IMG/VR virus record: IMGVR_UViG_3300031707_000150
Location: 1 to 26,410 of that record
Length of the DNA stretch: 26,410 bases
Origin: a virus
Strand: one strand, 5' to 3'
The notes below the pieces were generated by a model. That model saw nothing but the letters and a program-made list of their open reading frames with translations. It made no database searches and had not been told where the DNA came from. Positions 1 to 16,500 of this stretch are shown here, in pieces. The translations under genes and the position numbers were made by a program. Numbering within the stretch: position 1 is the first letter of the stretch; each line of letters opens with the position of its first letter.

Positions 1-1
1 T

Positions 2-124
2 AAAGCCCTCAATGCCTCGATTCTTTTAAGCGTAGATTATATGTCCGACGAAGGCGCTCAATGGCATTTATGGGAACCGTTGACACCAGAGCGATGTCCA
101 ATGAAGGTTTATAATTTCAGATAA
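2..124 (+). CDS. C-terminal end of an unrecognised protein (partial)
   Basis: An open frame enters from the left edge and runs 40 codons to a TAA at 122-124. The visible end contains the stretches GAQWHLWEPL and CPMKVYNFR. I do not recognise the family. The position, before small accessory genes and the portal, would suit the end of a packaging or accessory gene, but nothing in the residues shows this. Its stop codon lies inside the ATAAC core box of the first attC-like site, so the gene ends exactly where the proposed cassette insertion begins. The start lies outside the window. Confidence 0.5.
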   Translation, partial: KALNASILLSVDYMSDEGAQWHLWEPLTPERCPMKVYNFR

Positions 125-211
125 CGTGTTCATGAGCTGCGGGGGAGGAGTGACAATGGATGAGAAAAAAGACGGGGCTATTCCCCCGTCTGCTCGATGA
201 AATTGTTATAA
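119..211 (-). other. integron attC-like recombination site (left)
   Basis: On the + strand, ATAAC (121-125) pairs with GTTAT (205-209). After unpaired spacers of 3 nt, TTCAT-GAGC (129-137) pairs with GCTC-G-ATGAA (192-201), leaving G196 unpaired. A T-T mismatch and a G139-C190 pair follow. T189 is unpaired, and CGGGGG (140-145) pairs with CCCCCG (183-188). The unpaired G is 8 nt from the core and the two extrahelical bases are 6 nt apart, the layout I recall for the bottom strand of classical attC sites such as that of aadA1. This puts the recombinogenic strand on + and the site orientation on -. The large terminal loop holds the methyltransferase ribosome binding site and start codon. No attC covariance search was run. 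Confidence 0.65.
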
Positions 212-1008
212 ATTATGGGGGCGGCTGTTGCCTTTATAATTCTGATTGTCTTGATATTCTCAGGACACTCCCTGACGGCTCGGTGGACATGATTTTGCAA
301 GACCCGCCATATAACATGACGGCCTGTAAATGGGAATGTGAGATTGATTTCCCTGTTCTTTGGAAAGAGTGGGAACGGGTAGTCAAAGCCAACGGTGCTA
401 TCATTATGACGGCAAGCCAACCGTTTACAACTGACCTGATAAGTTCAAAGAGAACATGGTTTAAGTATGAATGGATTTGGAATAAACAACAAGCTGGTAA
501 TTTTACTATTGCTAAACAACAGCCGTTAAGAAAACATGAAAACATTTTAGTTTTTTATGCAAAACAACCGACATATAACCCACAAATGGAAAAAGCAAAG
601 GTTGAAAACATTAGGCCAACGATTGATTGTGGAGTTAATTCAATAACAAATTTAACATCAAAACACAGCGAAACATATTCACAGGAATATAATTACCCAT
701 CAAGTGTCATTGATAACTTCCACGGTCGCATGGCTGAATGTAATTCAGTGGCAAGGCAACACCCGACACAGAAGCCCGTTGACCTCTTCCGGTATTTGAT
801 AAGGACATACACAAATGAAGGGGAAACGGTCTTTGACGGATACGGAGGCTCAGGAACAACGGCTGTTGCCTGTATCAAAGAGAATAGAAAATATATCGTT
901 TGCGAAAAGGAGGCTGAATACATTGAGGTTGCAAAGAAGCGCATTGACGAAGCAACAAGGCAGGGGAATTTGTTTTCGGCTGTCGGCTGTTGCCCCCATG
1001 ATTTATAA
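125..1008 (-). mobile_element. putative integron-type gene cassette carrying a DNA methyltransferase
   Basis: If both attC-like sites recombine at G|TT on the - strand, the mobile unit is 884 bases: it starts with TTATAA (1008 down to 1003) and ends with the G opposite c125. As expected for a cassette, its start is complementary to the inner core of its own attC. The match extends over 205-222 and 992-1009 with one mismatch. The unit contains the whole methyltransferase, from its ribosome binding site (141-150) to its stop (1006-1008), but on the strand opposite to the attC orientation. No integron integrase is visible in the window. Confidence 0.5.
160..1008 (+). CDS. site-specific DNA methyltransferase, beta class (probable N6-adenine)
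   Basis: The 282-residue protein has the amino-methyltransferase catalytic motif IV DPPY at residues 48-51 and the S-adenosylmethionine-binding motif I as FDGYGGSGTTA at about 225-235. Motif IV before motif I is the beta-class order; DPPY rather than SPPY favours adenine over N4-cytosine. It would transfer a methyl group from S-adenosylmethionine to bases in phage DNA, commonly as protection against host restriction. No partner restriction enzyme is visible. The start at 160 follows GGGGGAGGAG (141-150); no in-frame alternative start exists before the methionine just ahead of motif IV. Start and ribosome binding site lie in the loop and stem of the left attC-like hairpin, and the stop lies in the core box of the right one. 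Recognition sequence cannot be read from the protein. Confidence 0.9.
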   Translation: MRKKTGLFPRLLDEIVINYGGGCCLYNSDCLDILRTLPDGSVDMILQDPPYNMTACKWECEIDFPVLWKEWERVVKANGAIIMTASQPFTTDLISSKRTWFKYEWIWNKQQAGNFTIAKQQPLRKHENILVFYAKQPTYNPQMEKAKVENIRPTIDCGVNSITNLTSKHSETYSQEYNYPSSVIDNFHGRMAECNSVARQHPTQKPVDLFRYLIRTYTNEGETVFDGYGGSGTTAVACIKENRKYIVCEKEAEYIEVAKKRIDEATRQGNLFSAVGCCPHDL

Positions 1009-1061
1009 CGACTGAACTGACCCGCTGTGCTTTGACAGTCGGGTCGAGTGATTTGTTATGC
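1003..1061 (-). other. integron attC-like recombination site (right)
   Basis: On the + strand, ATAAC (1005-1009) pairs with GTTAT (1055-1059), with full boxes TTATAAC (1003-1009) and GTTATGC (1055-1061). Unpaired spacers follow. Then ACT-GACCCG (1016-1024) pairs with CGGGTC-G-AGT (1040-1049), leaving G1046 out. CTGT (1025-1028) pairs with ACAG (1035-1038), leaving T1039 out, around a 6-nt loop. G1046 is 8 nt from the core and 6 nt separate the two extrahelical bases, identical to the left site. The + strand carries the G and T, as the bottom strand of attC does, so the site points to the - strand. At 59 nt it has the size of a classical short attC. Confidence 0.7.
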
Positions 1062-1270
1062 CTGAATTTTCCGTAGATTTTGAAGTTTTTTGTTCTTGCG
1101 GTGCTCCTCTTTGCAATAAAAGCGAAGGTAGAAATTCCAGAAATAGAGGACTTCCGCAGGTTGTTGTATCGCCTTGCGAAAAGTGCCTCCAAAAAGAATA
1201 CGATGCTGGATATGAAGATGGCCATAAACAAGGTTACGAAGATGGTAAAAAAGATTATGAATCGGCATAA
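1009..1270 (-). mobile_element. putative second gene cassette carrying a zinc-ribbon protein
   Basis: On the - strand the unit would start at TTATGCC (1270 down to 1264), directly after a G at 1271, and end with the right attC-like site. GGCATAAC (1264-1271) is the exact reverse complement of GTTATGCC (1055-1062), the cassette-start to own-attC relationship expected of a cassette. There is no third attC-like hairpin to the right of 1271. That fits the - orientation, where this is the first cassette and 1271 is the insertion point. It does not fit the + orientation, which would need another site there. Confidence 0.42.
1058..1270 (+). CDS. small zinc-ribbon protein with Gly-Tyr-Glu-Asp repeats
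   Basis: This 70-residue protein has CSCGAPLC near residues 12-19 and CEKC near 40-43, a likely zinc-binding pair. The tail carries repeated aromatic/acidic/Gly-Lys units (YDAGYEDG, QGYEDGKKDYE). Small phage proteins of this layout are common, but I know no assigned function. The ATG overlaps the GTTATGC core of the right attC-like site and the TAA lies in the GGCATAAC box at 1264-1271. A weak ribosome binding site (GAGTG, 1046-1050) lies inside the attC arm. The opposite strand is also open across the same stretch, but only this frame gives a recognisable cysteine pattern. Confidence 0.7.
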   Translation: MPEFSVDFEVFCSCGAPLCNKSEGRNSRNRGLPQVVVSPCEKCLQKEYDAGYEDGHKQGYEDGKKDYESA

Positions 1271-1325
1271 CCATTGATTAACAAACCATTTTGCCCTGAT
1301 AATGCAAAACTACGGCAGAGGGATT

Positions 1326-1568
1326 ATGAAAGAGACAACAGAAAAAATCATCGAGGGGTTACAGAAACCTACTTGGACGGTGGGCTATCCATCGGACGTG
1401 AGTGAATTGTTAGACCTCTTGGAGATTGCGGAAGGGGCACTGATAGACTCTATATCGTGCGAGGATGGTCTTGATGGTGATACTGGTCTACGGGTACTTA
1501 AAATGATTAGTGGTGCATTAGTGACACATGGACGATTAAGTTTATTTGTTCAAGTACCGGAAAAATAA
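1326..1568 (+). CDS. small hypothetical protein
   Basis: The 80-residue product begins MKETTEKIIEGL and is mostly helical and acidic, with no cysteine motif, signal peptide or membrane segment. An in-frame ATG at 1302 exists, but 1326 has GAGG at 1317-1320 in good position, so I prefer it. I do not recognise the family. It is the first gene to the right of the proposed cassette insertion point and is followed closely by another small gene, probably in the same transcript. Confidence 0.6.
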   Translation: MKETTEKIIEGLQKPTWTVGYPSDVSELLDLLEIAEGALIDSISCEDGLDGDTGLRVLKMISGALVTHGRLSLFVQVPEK

Positions 1569-2299: not shown

Positions 2300-3784
2300 T
2301 TGTCCTTCCTTCAACGTATTAAAAACTTCCTTCCTTTTGGACCGAGGGTAAACGTCTTTGTTTCTCCAGGCGGGATAGGTGTTGGATCGAAAGCCGTAAC
2401 CGACCCGATAGGTTCGTATGCTCAGAATATCTTTAGCACGATTCCCCGACAATTCAGCGAACTTCACAAGTATAATCTCGAAAACCTAATTAAATTAAGT
2501 TCTACCGATCTCATCCGGTTTTTGCTCTACGCAGAGCCTACGGTGTCCCATGCCTTCTCTAATTATCTCAGGGTCTTCGATAGCGGATATTATGTGTTGG
2601 CGAGGAAGGCAAACGGTTCCATCCATTCGCAAGGACAGGATTTTATTGACAATCTCATAGCCAGAATCGAACATCCGGTTAGTTCTGGTTTTGCTTCAGA
2701 CACGTCGCTTTCAAAAACCTATTTAGAGTTTGCAACTCATGTCTTGATTGATGGGGCTGCGTGCGGTGAGGTTGAATTTAACAGTGATTATAGGCTCGTG
2801 GCGATTCATTCGGTTGATCCGTACACCGTTATTTTTAAGTCAGACAACCAACGGTATGTGCCGTACCAGACCGGATTCGGTCAAGATATCTCCCTTGACT
2901 ACCGTAATTTTATCTACATTCCCGTGGATCCCATAGCCAATGATCCATACGGGACGAATCAAATCATCTCGGCTATTCAGGCTGTGATGAGTAAATTTAG
3001 ACTTCTTCAGGATTTTGCGAGGGCACTCCACAATATCGGATTTGATCGCATTGATATCCAGATTAACCAGGAGGCTATTATCAACGGTTGCAAGGCCGGT
3101 GGAATCAGTAATCCACAGGAGATCATCAAGACCATCAATACGGCAATATCGGAAGCCAAGACTTCGATGCAGTCCCTTGAGGCTGATGATAATCCTGTTC
3201 ATCTCGATAACGTAACAATCTCTACGTTGGAGGGAAGAAACTCTGGTAGAGGAGTCGATGTTCAGGCTATCGTCGATGTTCTTCTTTCTGATATCGCTTC
3301 GGCAATGAAAACCTACTCTACAATTTTAGGCAAGAGATTTGGAGGAGGTACGGAAGGCTATACTTCCATTGAAGCACTCATTTTTGTAAAACTTATCGAG
3401 GGATTTCAGAAAATCGTCAAACGACTTCTTGACCGTGTTTTTACCCTGGCACTGCAAGTTGAAGGTGGCATACAGGCATATGCAGATTGGGTATGGCTTG
3501 AACCGAGTTTGAGACCTGTTTATGAATCTGCTCAATATTATGCCGTATATTCGGGTCTTATTTGGGAGGAAGAGCAGATGGGTTCGATCTCCATGGATGA
3601 AAGAAATGCTCTCGCCCGAAGGATGCTCGGTCAAAAAGGTGCTCCACCTATTGATGCGGTAAGGGTAGATGGTTTTACACCATCCCCAAGAAATGATCCA
3701 CAAAGGAGCGTGACTCAAGAGGGCGGTAAAGAACAAAGACGTGCTGCGACCAATCGGGATCGTAGGTCTGGAGGTAATCCATGA
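2300..3784 (+). CDS. phage portal protein
   Basis: The 494-residue protein forms the dodecameric ring at the capsid vertex through which DNA is packaged. Evidence is its length, its place before the protease and capsid genes, the motif DPYGTNQI followed by a long helix (SAIQAVMSKFRLLQDFARAL) typical of portal stem regions, and the later helix-rich crown with YTSIEALIFVKLIEGFQKIV. The C-terminus is charged and disordered-looking (Arg, Gly, Gln rich). It starts at TTG 2300 after GGGAGAG (2291-2297); there is no better ATG nearby. It ends with an ATGA overlap with the next small gene. Confidence 0.9.
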   Translation: MSFLQRIKNFLPFGPRVNVFVSPGGIGVGSKAVTDPIGSYAQNIFSTIPRQFSELHKYNLENLIKLSSTDLIRFLLYAEPTVSHAFSNYLRVFDSGYYVLARKANGSIHSQGQDFIDNLIARIEHPVSSGFASDTSLSKTYLEFATHVLIDGAACGEVEFNSDYRLVAIHSVDPYTVIFKSDNQRYVPYQTGFGQDISLDYRNFIYIPVDPIANDPYGTNQIISAIQAVMSKFRLLQDFARALHNIGFDRIDIQINQEAIINGCKAGGISNPQEIIKTINTAISEAKTSMQSLEADDNPVHLDNVTISTLEGRNSGRGVDVQAIVDVLLSDIASAMKTYSTILGKRFGGGTEGYTSIEALIFVKLIEGFQKIVKRLLDRVFTLALQVEGGIQAYADWVWLEPSLRPVYESAQYYAVYSGLIWEEEQMGSISMDERNALARRMLGQKGAPPIDAVRVDGFTPSPRNDPQRSVTQEGGKEQRRAATNRDRRSGGNP

Positions 3785-3930
3785 AGGGGGAAAGTTGGCC
3801 TATGTGTTGTCACGATATCGCACCAGAAGATGAAGCCGGAGATTTGGAGTTAAAGAAGAAGAAAGAATTTCTTAAAGCACAAGAGGAGTTGGAAACAGAG
3901 GAACTATTAAGGGGGTTTTGCAATGGATAA
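3781..3930 (+). CDS. 49-residue conserved-looking small protein between portal and protease
   Basis: The ATG at 3781 overlaps the portal stop (ATGA), and GGAGG upstream (3770-3774) fits as a ribosome binding site. The product begins MKGESWPMCCHD, then is acidic and Lys-rich with a helical stretch (LELKKKKEFLKAQEELETEEL). The gene overlaps the protease start at 3923 by 8 bases. Translational coupling and the clean overlaps on both sides argue it is real despite its size. The function is unknown; the CC-H group might bind metal. Confidence 0.6.
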   Translation: MKGESWPMCCHDIAPEDEAGDLELKKKKEFLKAQEELETEELLRGFCNG

Positions 3931-5287
3931 AGTTGTTCGTATACCAACTATCGAAGAACTCGAAATTATCAATAAATATTTTGCGAAGAAGGAACTGACG
4001 GCGGAAGAGATTTATGTGTTCGATGTGAAGGCTGCCGAGACAGACAAGCTCACACAGCACTGGTCGTATCTCGGTAAAGATATGATCGAGGGTTTTCATG
4101 CCGACATACAGAGGAGACATGAAAATTCAGAAACAGAAATAGTGGGATATCTCTTCGGCCATGATAAGACGAAAATTCCATCTGGAACTCTGTTTCAATC
4201 TGTTGTGTCCTCAATGGGTGACGGTGAGAATCCTCCGGTGGCATTTAAACCGAGTGTCTACATGTTGAAGAATCTGAATGTCTCTGGTTTGAATACCGAT
4301 GATTACATCCGGGCAGTCGAAGCTGGTCATACCGAAGCTGTCAGCGTGGGATTCCAAGCTGGTTCTTTTATCTGCAATCTTTGTAATCAGGATATCCGCA
4401 CCATGACCTGCATTCATATACCTGGTCGGTTCTACAATATGGCTGCGGAAGGAGAATCACCTGTGGTGAAGCGTTGTACCTATACGGTTCATCAAGGATT
4501 CGTCAAGGAAAGAAATCTTGTCGAGCTTTCCGGTGTCTATGCGGGGGCAATGCCGGGAGCCCGTATCCAGTCTGAATTTACGGTTCCAGAGAACGCACAG
4601 GTCAAGGACGGAAAGGTAATAGACGAGAAGGGTTCTGTCTTGATGTCTGATAACATCAAGGATTTTTCCCAAAACGATATTCTCCGCTTCAATTATGACT
4701 TCGATGGCAGTATCGAAAGGGTTGGAAGTGTGGAGTCGGAAGAAGAAAGCACCCGTGATCTTAGTGGAACAGTCGAAGCCCTCGCCGCAGATATGGCAAC
4801 ACTACAAAAAGCAAAGGATGAACTGATTGTCCTGAAGGACACATTAGAGGCCACACTGGAGGATTTACGGGCCAATGATGAGTTGCTCCGCAAGAACCTT
4901 GGGCTTTCCGAGATCGACAAGATTGAACTCCAAGGAAAATTGGGGAAGGCAGAGAAAAGGGTTTCCGTTTTGGAAGCAGAGAACAAGGAACTGAAGGCCA
5001 TAAAGGATGCCTACGTTGCAGATTTAAGGGGCAAATGTAAACATCTATCGGTTGCCATCAATGGTGAGAATCACAGTGATGAGCTTTTCGACAAGGAGAT
5101 TGGGGTACTCTCCATCGATGAGTTAAAGGAGAAGATCGGTCTGCAACAGAAACAGTTAGCACAAATCATTCCACCTGAACGCAAAACGAAAGTTCAAGAA
5201 ATAGTTAGGATAGAAACTGGCAGTCCTAACGCTATTGACAAGAGTCGGGTGGTTAACCAGAAGTCTGAGTTATTCAAAACCAGTTAG
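3923..5287 (+). CDS. prohead maturation protease fused to a coiled-coil scaffold
   Basis: This 454-residue protein sits between portal and capsid, where the maturation protease and scaffold normally lie. Residues about 1-215 look like the protease: HTEAVSVGF at 136-144 (S141 a candidate nucleophile) and ELSGVYAGAMPGA at 201-213, a signature seen in phage proheads. C151, C154, C163 and H165 form an unusual knuckle in the middle. Residues about 280-360 are a heptad-rich coiled coil (repeated Leu, Glu, Lys), the expected scaffold domain, so one polypeptide would both template and then cleave the prohead. The start follows AGGGGG (3910-3915). Catalytic residues are proposed by position, not proven. 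Confidence 0.8.
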   Translation: MDKVVRIPTIEELEIINKYFAKKELTAEEIYVFDVKAAETDKLTQHWSYLGKDMIEGFHADIQRRHENSETEIVGYLFGHDKTKIPSGTLFQSVVSSMGDGENPPVAFKPSVYMLKNLNVSGLNTDDYIRAVEAGHTEAVSVGFQAGSFICNLCNQDIRTMTCIHIPGRFYNMAAEGESPVVKRCTYTVHQGFVKERNLVELSGVYAGAMPGARIQSEFTVPENAQVKDGKVIDEKGSVLMSDNIKDFSQNDILRFNYDFDGSIERVGSVESEEESTRDLSGTVEALAADMATLQKAKDELIVLKDTLEATLEDLRANDELLRKNLGLSEIDKIELQGKLGKAEKRVSVLEAENKELKAIKDAYVADLRGKCKHLSVAINGENHSDELFDKEIGVLSIDELKEKIGLQQKQLAQIIPPERKTKVQEIVRIETGSPNAIDKSRVVNQKSELFKTS

Positions 5288-12678: not shown

Positions 12679-13599
12679 ATGGCAGACGTGATAATGAATC
12701 GGAGAATCTGCCCAGAATGCAAAAAAGAATTTACCACTAATCACTATAGAAAAATATATTGCAATAAATCTTGTAGAAACAAACAGCATCTCAAACAACA
12801 TCCGGGGGTGAAAAATCATAGACAACATCAAGAAAGTATTCATAGAACGCAGTTACCCAAAGTGTGTCCTATTTGTACAAAGGAGTTTTTCGTAGACATA
12901 CTGCATATTAATCAGAAATATTGCAGTAGAGAATGTGGGCGCAGATTCACTTGTTTAAATAGAAAGAAAATTTATACCAGCAGAGAGATCCAATGTGGGA
13001 TTTGCGGAAAATCATTTATAGAAATGAGCAAAAGAAACAAGAAATATTGTAGCCCCAAGTGCGAGAACAAGGCTCATTCCATGAGATATCGTAAAAAGAT
13101 TAATGACAGCGATAACGGGGAGATTGAGAAATTATATCGTGCCGGGACATCTATGGTCGCCATAGCTTCCAGGTTTGATATTTCAGACAATGCGGTCAGA
13201 AGAAGATTGATTAAGTTGGGTGTACCATTAAGAAACCCGCATCTTTCGGAACACAGTAGTAATTGGAAGGGCGGTAGACGTATTACCAAAAATGGATACG
13301 TAGAGGTTTTAAACCCAGATTACCGTAATACCTCGAAATCCTACTATATACATGAACATCGCCTGGTATGGGAAAAGACATATGGAAAAAAGATACCAAA
13401 GGGTTACGTTGTTCACCATCTAAATGGTGTCAAGGATGACAACCGTCCCGAAAATTTGGTTGCAATGAAAATCGGAGAACACTTAAATCAGGCAGAACCA
13501 TACAAGAAAAAGATTAGAGAACTTGAAGAAAAAATTAGATCATATCAACAAAACAATTTATTTAACAGTAGGGATATACGGACATGTCAGAAATCATAG
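12679..13599 (+). CDS. HNH homing-type endonuclease with three zinc fingers
   Basis: The 306-residue protein has three CxxC...CxxxC fingers (C11/C14/C28/C32, C63/C66/C82/C86, C106/C109/C124/C128), a helix-turn-helix at about 154-182, and a C-terminal HNH nuclease with H225-E-H227 and VVHHLNGVKDDNRPENL at 244-260. Such free-standing enzymes nick or cut related phages lacking the gene and spread by repair. It separates the chaperones from the tape measure, which are normally adjacent, and is visibly more AT-rich than its neighbours, both signs of insertion. Its last 16 bases overlap the tape-measure start. Three N-terminal fingers are more than usual for this type. Confidence 0.9.
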   Translation: MADVIMNRRICPECKKEFTTNHYRKIYCNKSCRNKQHLKQHPGVKNHRQHQESIHRTQLPKVCPICTKEFFVDILHINQKYCSRECGRRFTCLNRKKIYTSREIQCGICGKSFIEMSKRNKKYCSPKCENKAHSMRYRKKINDSDNGEIEKLYRAGTSMVAIASRFDISDNAVRRRLIKLGVPLRNPHLSEHSSNWKGGRRITKNGYVEVLNPDYRNTSKSYYIHEHRLVWEKTYGKKIPKGYVVHHLNGVKDDNRPENLVAMKIGEHLNQAEPYKKKIRELEEKIRSYQQNNLFNSRDIRTCQKS

Positions 13600-16500
13600 T
13601 AGAAAAATTGGGAGTAGAATTTTTTTCGAAGGTCTCTCCCGACTTCTTTTCTACAATACAAAAAGCCGTCGATCAGTTCAATCAACAGATCCAACCTTCC
13701 CTGAAGGCTATCGCCTCACAGTTTAAGGCCATCGGAGCATCCGTTTCTACCTTCTTTGAACTCCTCAAAAGTGTCCCGGCAGGCGACATTTTTAAGGGTT
13801 GGAACGTCCAGGGTGCGACCGATAAGATGTCGGCCAGCTTTAAAACAGCGAAGGATCAATCGCTGAAATACGTAGAGGAATTAAGTACGGGTATTAAGGC
13901 AAAACTACGTGACCTTGAACGGGAGTTTGCGAAGAATCAGAAGATCATCTCATCCCTTCAGGCAGGTGAGGATATTGTCACCAGCTGGGGACAGCCTAAA
14001 TGGTCTACAAGGAAGAAGAAAATGTACTTCCCTAATGCTCAATGGGCTGTTGGATCGGGTGGCATGCGAGAAGGAGTAGATTACCCTCAAGGCAGTTCCC
14101 CTTATGGGGCTGATACAGACAGGGTGTTTTCCGAAGTTAGTGCCGGTTATCAATCCAGACAACTTACCATTTACAAAGAGATGGAATCTGTCTTGGGTAG
14201 AATGGGTGCATTCGAACGGGCCAGACTCGCCACGGATGAACTGATAGCCCGTGCTAATCAATCAGAGGTCGATGCTAAAAGCAAGATTGCCGAAGTTTCA
14301 AAAATCATCGATGTTCTCCGAAGTAAAGGGTTGACCGTTGAAGGCAAGGATGATAAATATTTCTCTTCTGCTAAGAAGCATCTTGAAGATATCTGGAATA
14401 CTACCAAAGATATAAATATTCTTAATCAAGAGGCCGAGGCCGTCATTGCTCGTATCTGCGGAAGTGAAGAAGCCCTCAAGAAAATCATCCTCGAACGGTT
14501 CGAGATCGAAGGTAAACTGGTCACCCTTGCCACTTCGATGGCAAACGAATATGAACGTGCCAAAGCATCCCAATTCCAGTCCCTGAATGTTGGTGGGTTG
14601 TGGACCAAGGGAGATATAAACGTAGAGTCCTGGCAGCGACTGATAGGTTATGTAGAACAAGCCAGGGGTGCGGTCAATGCTTTCCAACAGAATATTCAAG
14701 CCGTACAGATGAAGGCTTTTATTGATCCTAACGAATTGGAAAGGATCAATAGGTTGACCTCTGTTCTTAACGCTGAAATAGATAGCCTGTCTAATCGTCT
14801 TTCCAAGATCGGAAGTCAAACGGGTGCGAAGGCGATAGCCGAACCTTTCGTTGCCCTCGAAGCCCAAATTACTAAGGTCGAGACCGCATTAGCCGCAGCT
14901 CAAGCCTCCGGTAAAGGTGGCGCGGTTGTTTATACCAATTTAGATGCAACGGTCAGAAAACTTGCCAATGACCTCAAAGAACTGGCTGCCTCTACTAAGT
15001 TATGGCGTGTTGATGAGATCAGGGCTGGCATGGGTGTCCTTGATGCCCAGATCAATAAACTTAGTGGGGGTGCAGAGTTAAGTTATAAATCCCTGAAAAA
15101 GATGGGTATGGGGATGTTGGAGGTTGAAGAAATCCAATCTCTCCTCGGCACCAAGATGAAACTGATCCGGGAAGAGTTTGCTTTAACCGGAGTTGCTACT
15201 ACTGCCATGAATACGGAGATGAATAAATCTTCGCAGGCCATGGTGGGGTTAAGGGCTTACGCCGGAGAGGTAGAGAAGAAAACGGGTGATGCAGCCAGAG
15301 CCATGCAACGATGGTCTATCGAAGGTTTCGGCAATATGCTGAAATCTCAGATGGCATGGTTGGTTGGTGGGGCTCTTATCTTCGGTACTATCTTTAAGAT
15401 TCAACAAGCCTTCCGTGAAGCCACAAGTACCCTTATGAAGTTTAGTCAAGCGATTATTGATGTCGGAGCTATCACCAATGCTTCGGCTGGCGATATGAAG
15501 GTTCTTGAAAAGGCTGCCCGTGATGTTGCCACTACCACCAAAATGAGTTTTCTGGAAGCGGCGGACGCTCTCAAAATCTTGGGTCAGGCCGGTTTGACTG
15601 CCAAACAGTCTGCCGATGCTCTTAAAACTGTTGGTATGATGGTTTCAGCCACAGGTGCGAGTGCGCAGGAAGCCGTCAAAATTCTGACTACCTCCATGTA
15701 TGTTTGGAATATTTCAGCCAAAGACGTTACCAGAATCGGGAATGTGCTGGCTGCTGCCTTAAACTATTCAAAATTGGAAGTCGGGGATCTGACAACCTCT
15801 TTTAACTATTTGGCTGCAACCGCTTCACAGGTGGGGATGGGTATTGAGGAAACGGCTGCTACGATTGCGGTTCTTTCCAATGCTGGTTTAAGGGCCTCCA
15901 CGATCGGTACAGGTCTACGGGGCATCCTTGGACAGTTGATTGCTCCCACCAAGGCATTTAGGGATGAACTTCATTCTATCGGGGTGGACTTTGAAGCTAT
16001 CAGGATGCCAGGCCACAACCTCATCGAAGTCCTCGGCGTTCTCGGTAAAGCCGGATTCGACCTTACTAATACATTTGAAGGATTAGAGAAGAGACAAGCC
16101 GGTGTCTTTGCGGCCATGAGCAATATGGGTAAAGATGCCTTCCAGAAGATGACCGATGCCCTGACTGGTACGAATGCCTTATTGGTGATGAATGAAAGAG
16201 CTATGCAGGGACCCATGGCTCAACTCCATGTTTTTAAGACAAGCCTTCTCGACGTGGCCCTAAGTACAAGTGATATAGTTGTTCCGTCCTTTAATCTGTT
16301 GTTGAAGGTTCTGGGGGAACTTGTCGCAACCTTCAAACTCCTATGGCCGGTCTTTATTGGTGGTGCGGTTATCTCTGGTATCCAATATCTGATTAAACAG
16401 TTTGATCTTCTCGCATTGGGGGCTGGCACTCTCAATACGGTCTTAACCTTCTTGGGTAAACACCCCATTTTCCTGGCCCTCAGTCTACTGGCGGCCGCCG

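Follow-up and report, generated by a model that had tools for sequence, protein, structure and literature searches.

Polarity-inverted gene cassettes ending at an attI site in phage genomes, an array probably moved by a host integron integrase

We analyzed a 26.4 kb (26,410 nt) phage fragment, IMG/VR record IMGVR_UViG_3300031707_000150, and refer to this whole stretch of DNA as the window. A PHROG profile search placed portal, major head and tape-measure genes in it, and among the tail genes lies an HNH endonuclease gene (12679-13599), likely a homing endonuclease, with no attC site nearby. The left end of the window holds the remainder of a truncated gene, two hairpins that are each followed by a gene, and a boundary site past which the phage genes begin (Table 1). 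In near-identical contigs a large terminase gene lies upstream of the array, and the array site in these relatives falls between the large terminase and portal genes. Another relative, G5 (capsid at 55%), is array-free, with a terminase-portal gap of 1.9 kb in which no attC site was found; because G5 is too distant, it offers no exact empty site.

Table 1. Features at the left end of the window (coordinates are window positions).
Feature	Position	Strand	Remarks
3' end of upstream cassette gene (...KVYNFR*)	2..124	+	stop 122-124; cut by contig end
attC1	119..211	+, recombinogenic (bottom-type) strand	cores AAC 123-125 and GTT 205-207; extrahelical T189 and G196; long loop
Cassette 1, excised unit	125..1008	+	attC1 body and methyltransferase; AA^C crossover 124/125 and 1008/1009
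N4/N6 DNA methyltransferase gene	160..1008	+	PF01555 E 8e-30; PHROG 67 E 4.5e-68; PADLOC MTase_II
attC2	1003..1061	+	cores AAC 1007-1009 and GTT 1055-1057; extrahelical T1039 and G1046
Cassette 2, excised unit	1009..1270	+	attC2 body and 70-aa gene
70-aa cassette gene	1058..1270	+	no family match in profile searches
attI site AACCATTGATTAACAAACCATTTTGCCCTGATAA	1269..1302	+	fixed right boundary of the array; common to phage contigs and bacterial loci
First phage gene past the array	1302..1568	+	reads away from attI; at least 99% constant in the window, G1, G2 and G3
Portal protein gene	2300..3784	+	PHROG 3753 E 2.5e-52; 100% identical in L002-L004; constant flank and query for relatives

Both hairpins fold on the + strand, with ATAAC at 121-125 pairing with GTTAT at 205-209 in attC1 and ATAAC at 1005-1009 pairing with GTTAT at 1055-1059 in attC2, and both carry on the 3' arm an extrahelical G 8 nt before GTT and an extrahelical T 6 nt further. 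They display the paired R core, unpaired spacer, L stem and extrahelical G/T spacing of an attC site, and an earlier note, made from the letters of the window, had described the layouts of 119-211 and 1003-1061 correctly. The same note had pointed to complementarity between each cassette's ends, which we recovered as 17 of 18 paired positions for 205-222 with 992-1009 and 8 of 8 for 1055-1062 with 1264-1271. Such pairing exceeded chance: of 69 phage cassettes, 39 reached 8 bp or more, as compared to 2.2% of swapped pairs.

We built a covariance model, R1, from 19 viral hairpins only (17 pairs, 95.7% of cells paired), including attC2 in the training set and leaving attC1 out. Covariation in this hairpin family, whose consensus is AAC|GACTGAACTCAGCGGCG...CGTCCGCTGGAGTGATTG|GTTAT, was marked by 9 pairs that had changed on both sides, a level reached by none of 500 shuffles. 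On the + strand of the window, R1 scored attC1 at 29.5 bits (E 7.4e-6), a site outside the training set, and attC2 at 65.1 bits (E 3e-16), a site within it. In the class 1 integron NC_004998 it recovered every one of the four attC sites, all on the strand complementary to the genes, and it also recovered one attC site of phage TJE1, its single match in about 759 kb of other viral DNA. Both window sites are therefore matched by a model that finds proven attC sites and little else, and the suggestion that they are real attC sites rather than random hairpins held; fold and model together confirm them as integron-type on sequence grounds. The attC sites of P12002L were missed, so R1 does not cover every attC type, and no Rfam match reached its gathering score. 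A simple fold-energy scanner had been dropped in favor of the covariance model for want of specificity.

Evaluating this hairpin family beyond viruses, we found that a DNA pattern derived from it matched 34 bacterial MAG loci, mainly of Deltaproteobacteria/Desulfobacterota-type, Nitrospirota and Nitrospinota, and that R1 matched 79 sites across these 34 loci and 2 viral loci. IntI matches with E <=1e-30 (up to 473 bits) were present in 12 of the 21 genomes found by the attC pattern, R1 sites recurred through those bacterial genomes, and several shared a contig with IntI.

A scan with the portal protein revealed three contigs with a 100% identical portal, which match the window at 99-99.95% from position 1262/1268 onward and have no match upstream, where other cassettes lie; to the left of 1262-1268, the near-identical G1, G2 and G3 carry different cassettes. 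G2 and G3 share both flanks at 99.8-99.9% identity (12.4 kb on the left and 12.9 kb on the other side), and between these common flanks the array spans 2.85 kb in one and 0.46 kb in the other. The differing stretches consist of successive genes, each bounded by the one hairpin family. G4 is another phage, with portal and capsid in other families (Phage_portal with Phage_Mu_F, Phage_capsid), and carries three cassettes common to the window-type phages, including the window methyltransferase at 95%; compared to G006, with which it shares a flank at 99.85%, it differs to the left of the same kind of boundary. In contig G007 (66 kb; locus L125) two divergent attC arrays lie about 7 kb apart, both of the inverted polarity described below.

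Inside the arrays, shared stretches ended, after trimming, within 5 nt of an AA^C core, except for one end 10 nt away, in agreement with the predicted cores. The breakpoint at the methyltransferase start (129 in the window, 3365 in G4) lies at the AAC of a long hairpin outside the core list of our script. Two breakpoints at the GTT side (+41, +48) lie inside similar hairpins and could stem from homologous recombination between them, and some G006/G4 and L205/L211 breakpoints, outside the arrays or at an array edge, are ordinary phage mosaicism. No relative kept the same genes without attC geometry. As read from these alignments, cassette units have been swapped at AA^C in near-identical phages, the genomes recording outcomes and not the enzyme.

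These comparisons also delimit the units themselves. For cassette 1, the breakpoints with G2 and G4 lie at 126, 129 and 1015, and attC1 moves together with the methyltransferase (G4 3365-4254, 95%), the earliest in-frame start codon of which falls within the attC1 hairpin loop. A cassette unit accordingly comprises a hairpin and the gene downstream of it, cut at AA^C, and such units have the mobility, crossover within the cores and complementary ends of gene cassettes. What had been proposed as a single unit, 125-1270, resolves into two cassettes of about 125-1008 and 1009-1270. The presence of gene cassettes stood, while the extent of the array had been drawn too short: the upstream ORF is the end of another cassette, truncated in the window. 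This portion has a 100% match at G2 14567-14692 and G4 293-418, and in both contigs the ...KVYNFR* cassette is complete, flanked by attC sites and with further cassettes after it.

Past the last AAC the window reads CATTGATTAACAAACCATTTTGCCCTGATAA, and the boundary it belongs to recurs. The same site closes the arrays of G1, G2, G3 and G009 and, in an altered form, that of G013; in G4 and G006 only the first ten bases of the boundary are common with the window. Its motif is present in about a dozen attC-bearing phage contigs. A pattern built from this site alone, without attC information, had matches in 27 viral stretches, and among those newly fetched, nearly all with a correctly spaced AAC core have R1 attC sites; none were found in those without such a core, nor in L221, in which the AAC is shifted. 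In bacteria, the pattern gave 4 matches in 395 genomes of one phylum and 1 in 396 of another, and its reversed control gave none. Two bacterial loci place the site beside an integrase gene, with attI at 1343-1376 and intI from 1477 in L173 (IntI 441 bits) and attI at 1501-1534 and intI from 1712 in L229 (IntI 450 bits), the two IntIs being 73% identical. Because the same site lies upstream of bacterial intI, the boundary is an attI site of a bacterial integron lineage with the array on its usual side, so that 1269-1302 supplies the attI site of a complete integron; 1264-1271 is the R core of this site and does not belong to a further attC. We had considered TAACCATTGATTA as a phage repeat until the bacterial loci revealed attI. 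A possible third attC, in which 1264 would pair across a long hairpin with GTTAGAC near 1408, was discarded as it gave no matching fold and its place is that of attI.

Two further occurrences of attI were observed. G2 15036-15281 (L089) and G4 1046-1291 (L092) each hold a second attI copy within the array. The gene after it (MKESTERIIDLGEDEHYPY...) begins much like the first phage gene past the array, and these units look like attI-type cassettes. In L223, from a genome of the same phylum as G022, the same attI (1501-1534) lies beside a classically oriented large gene that by eye resembles DUF262/GmrSD, and no intI was seen within the stretch read.

To evaluate the orientation of genes relative to their attC sites, we judged polarity by the longest ORF per interval between attC sites. 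Of the 55 phage cassettes that could be decided, 50 had their gene on the recombinogenic strand (50:5), as opposed to 1 of 34 (1:33) for bacterial and plasmid cassettes, and a cruder neighbor count concurs (93:28 for phages vs 20:111 for bacteria). Independent support comes from the unusual hairpins of the methyltransferase and the ...NFR* gene, which move with the downstream gene. Since the unit is an upstream hairpin and its gene, cut at AA^C, the phage attC polarity is the reverse of the classical one; the attC sites of the window run against their genes, which the earlier note had missed, as it had the attI site. The order of a gene followed by its attC, with a non-coding recombinogenic strand, is the exception in the phage arrays. 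Single inverted genes do occur in integrons, and gene-attC order is not an absolute criterion. All five phage exceptions come from two viral contigs, L204 and L121, which have the same attC family in classical polarity, L204 also having attI; they may be fragments of host integrons carried by phages, or contigs that were misclassified.

In Vibrio cholerae, excision increases when an array is inverted so that its recombinogenic strand becomes the lagging-strand template (PMC11023631). We hypothesize that inversion in phages may likewise put the recombinogenic strand on the lagging-strand template, with the genes co-directional with replication, wherever phage genes run with replication.

The phage arrays lack an integrase of their own as far as the contigs extend. 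With TIGR02249 we found no integron integrase above the cut-off in 30 phage contigs (the window and 29 others, all fragments, including lengths of 94, 66, 66, 63 and 57 kb), and the intI in cis of a complete integron is thus absent from this fragmentary set. Tyrosine recombinases near attC in G011, G014 and G016 were considered as integron integrases and rejected, scoring best as XerC/XerD and far below the cut-off. The earlier reading of an integrase-less cassette cluster agrees with this, the window fragment having at least two nearby attC sites and no intI; this is the makeup of a CALIN, from which the window array differs by having attI. Since the phage contigs lack an integrase, the likeliest agent moving the cassettes would be IntI supplied in trans by the host; the contigs being fragments, an integrase may lie elsewhere in these phages. 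A Pc promoter at attI could not express the window cassettes because of the gene direction.

The cargo of the cassettes includes DNA methyltransferases of the N6_N4, MT-A70, Dam and C5 types, a PAPS-reductase-like protein that also matches BrxP, a TAGT glycosyltransferase and radical-SAM proteins, besides numerous small proteins of unknown kind. Because the cassettes are rich in DNA methyltransferases, this content suggests interchangeable anti-restriction genes with which a phage population may change its DNA modification. The link to attC is not general to phage methyltransferases, as attC sites of this family were absent from 79 other viral methyltransferase loci. One N-terminal leader, MKSKRAIPAQVQPVV or a near variant of it, also recurs in cassette genes from different phages, fused to unrelated continuations (L126 4427-4624, L129 3326-3688, L220 2776-2970, L125 5105-5383, L217 3408-3608), and another leader, MTKENSGLSNVRSNELL, is repeated within L125; the common leader is perhaps a start module tied to the hairpin. 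On the minus strand of L089, a dNMP phosphatase gene (12844-14178) has its profile matches split into two stretches, at about residues 13-55 and 308-441, which are separated by an HNH match, a possible intein or inserted homing gene.

Taken together, we consider it highly probable that window 1-1302 is the attI-proximal end of an integron array in a tailed phage, located between terminase and portal, moved by host IntI and bearing anti-restriction cargo. During infection or lysogeny, host IntI would recombine the folded attC strand, here the coding strand, and circular cassettes would be excised and then re-inserted at attI or attC, with the newest cassette landing last, beside attI. The backward genes would run with the phage operon and be read by upstream phage transcription, not by an integron Pc. 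Methyltransferases, the PAPS-reductase-like protein and the glycosyltransferase would most likely let the phage population alter its DNA modification and escape restriction.

We weighed other explanations against this one. That the exchange reflects ordinary homologous recombination of phages wherever cassettes share short sequences, the attC sites being passive leftovers of host integrons, strikes us as unlikely: it would suit the similarity of hairpin bodies across cassettes and the breakpoints at the GTT side, yet most breakpoints hug AA^C with few identical bases on either side, and leftovers would be expected to keep the host polarity, whereas here polarity is inverted, stems keep pairing via compensatory changes, own-end complementarity is retained and the attI boundary is conserved across unrelated phages. 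No more probable is a phage-encoded recombinase other than IntI, for which the XerC/D-like enzymes near attC could be candidates, but G011 is one of the two classical-polarity contigs, the phage attI matches the attI of bacterial IntI, and the window, G001-G010, G012, G013 and G015 gave no match to a tyrosine recombinase, nor did 13 further contigs save for a 26-residue partial match in G044. Very improbable is that the differing arrays are metagenome assembly chimeras; the arrays do hold repeated stretches of about 25 bp from which repeated hairpins might be misjoined, but they come from four separate metagenome records, junctions share only a few bp, many cassette bodies are unique, the G2/G3 flanks agree over 25 kb and a second phage pair behaves alike. 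We give next to no credence to the hairpins being terminators or other intergenic repeats with a coincidental likeness to attC, G+C-rich and intergenic as they are, for R1 transfers between phage hairpins and proven integrons with a near-zero background.

Beyond the window, we lean towards a distinct, phage-specific integron lineage in the phages of environmental bacteria, in which attI and polarity-inverted, mostly DNA-modification cassettes would be exchanged among unrelated phages via host IntI, in a pool apart from that of bacteria; selection would have favored the inversion because attC stays recombinogenic and the genes still run with phage transcription. If host-mediated exchange of this kind is true, integron recombination would be visible inside phages at strain resolution, the renewal of their anti-restriction genes would have an explanation, and a further cassette pool, distinct in its polarity rule, would come to light. 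Two questions would become testable, namely phage use of host integrase in trans and whether the attC strand relative to replication tunes turnover, and attI-bearing phages could carry host cassettes, which would open a two-way route between integrons and phages.

How does this array compare to known systems? The class 1 integron NC_004998 (L200) shares with the window an attC geometry with extrahelical G and T, and differs in its non-coding recombinogenic strand, its intI1 and its resistance cargo. For mobile integrons, attI-type gene cassettes have been described (PMC12901181), and the attI-containing units of G2 and G4 look like putative phage counterparts. Chromosomal integrons of Desulfobacterota-type, Nitrospirota and related bacteria (L173, L229; G017, G022, G033, G514) have the attC family of the window, and L173 and L229 also have the same attI with the array on the same side; unlike the window, these integrons have intI beside attI, in the place occupied here by the first phage gene past the array, and their cassette genes use the strand that the phage genes do not. 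A further group are the CALIN phages (Tetrasphaera phage TJE1, Polaribacter phage P12002L, Pseudoalteromonas phage PH101 and phage MW202573), which like the window have attC sites and cassettes without intI; the main text of Qi et al. 2023 (PMC9892861) describes integron parts in 21 phages with 17 attC clusters, methyltransferase cassettes, and recombination by IntI1 of 5 of 6 tested phage attC sites. As phage attC clusters are published there, ours is not a new kind of element. The TJE1 site found by R1 has classical polarity, unlike the window, and the main text of that paper reports neither a general inversion of polarity, nor an attI common to the array ends of lytic phages, nor strain-level swapping. 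Open-licence PMC literature contained nothing on inverted cassettes in phages beyond that study, and within the literature searched, conserved inverted polarity, an attI without an integrase and strain-level array turnover appear to be new.
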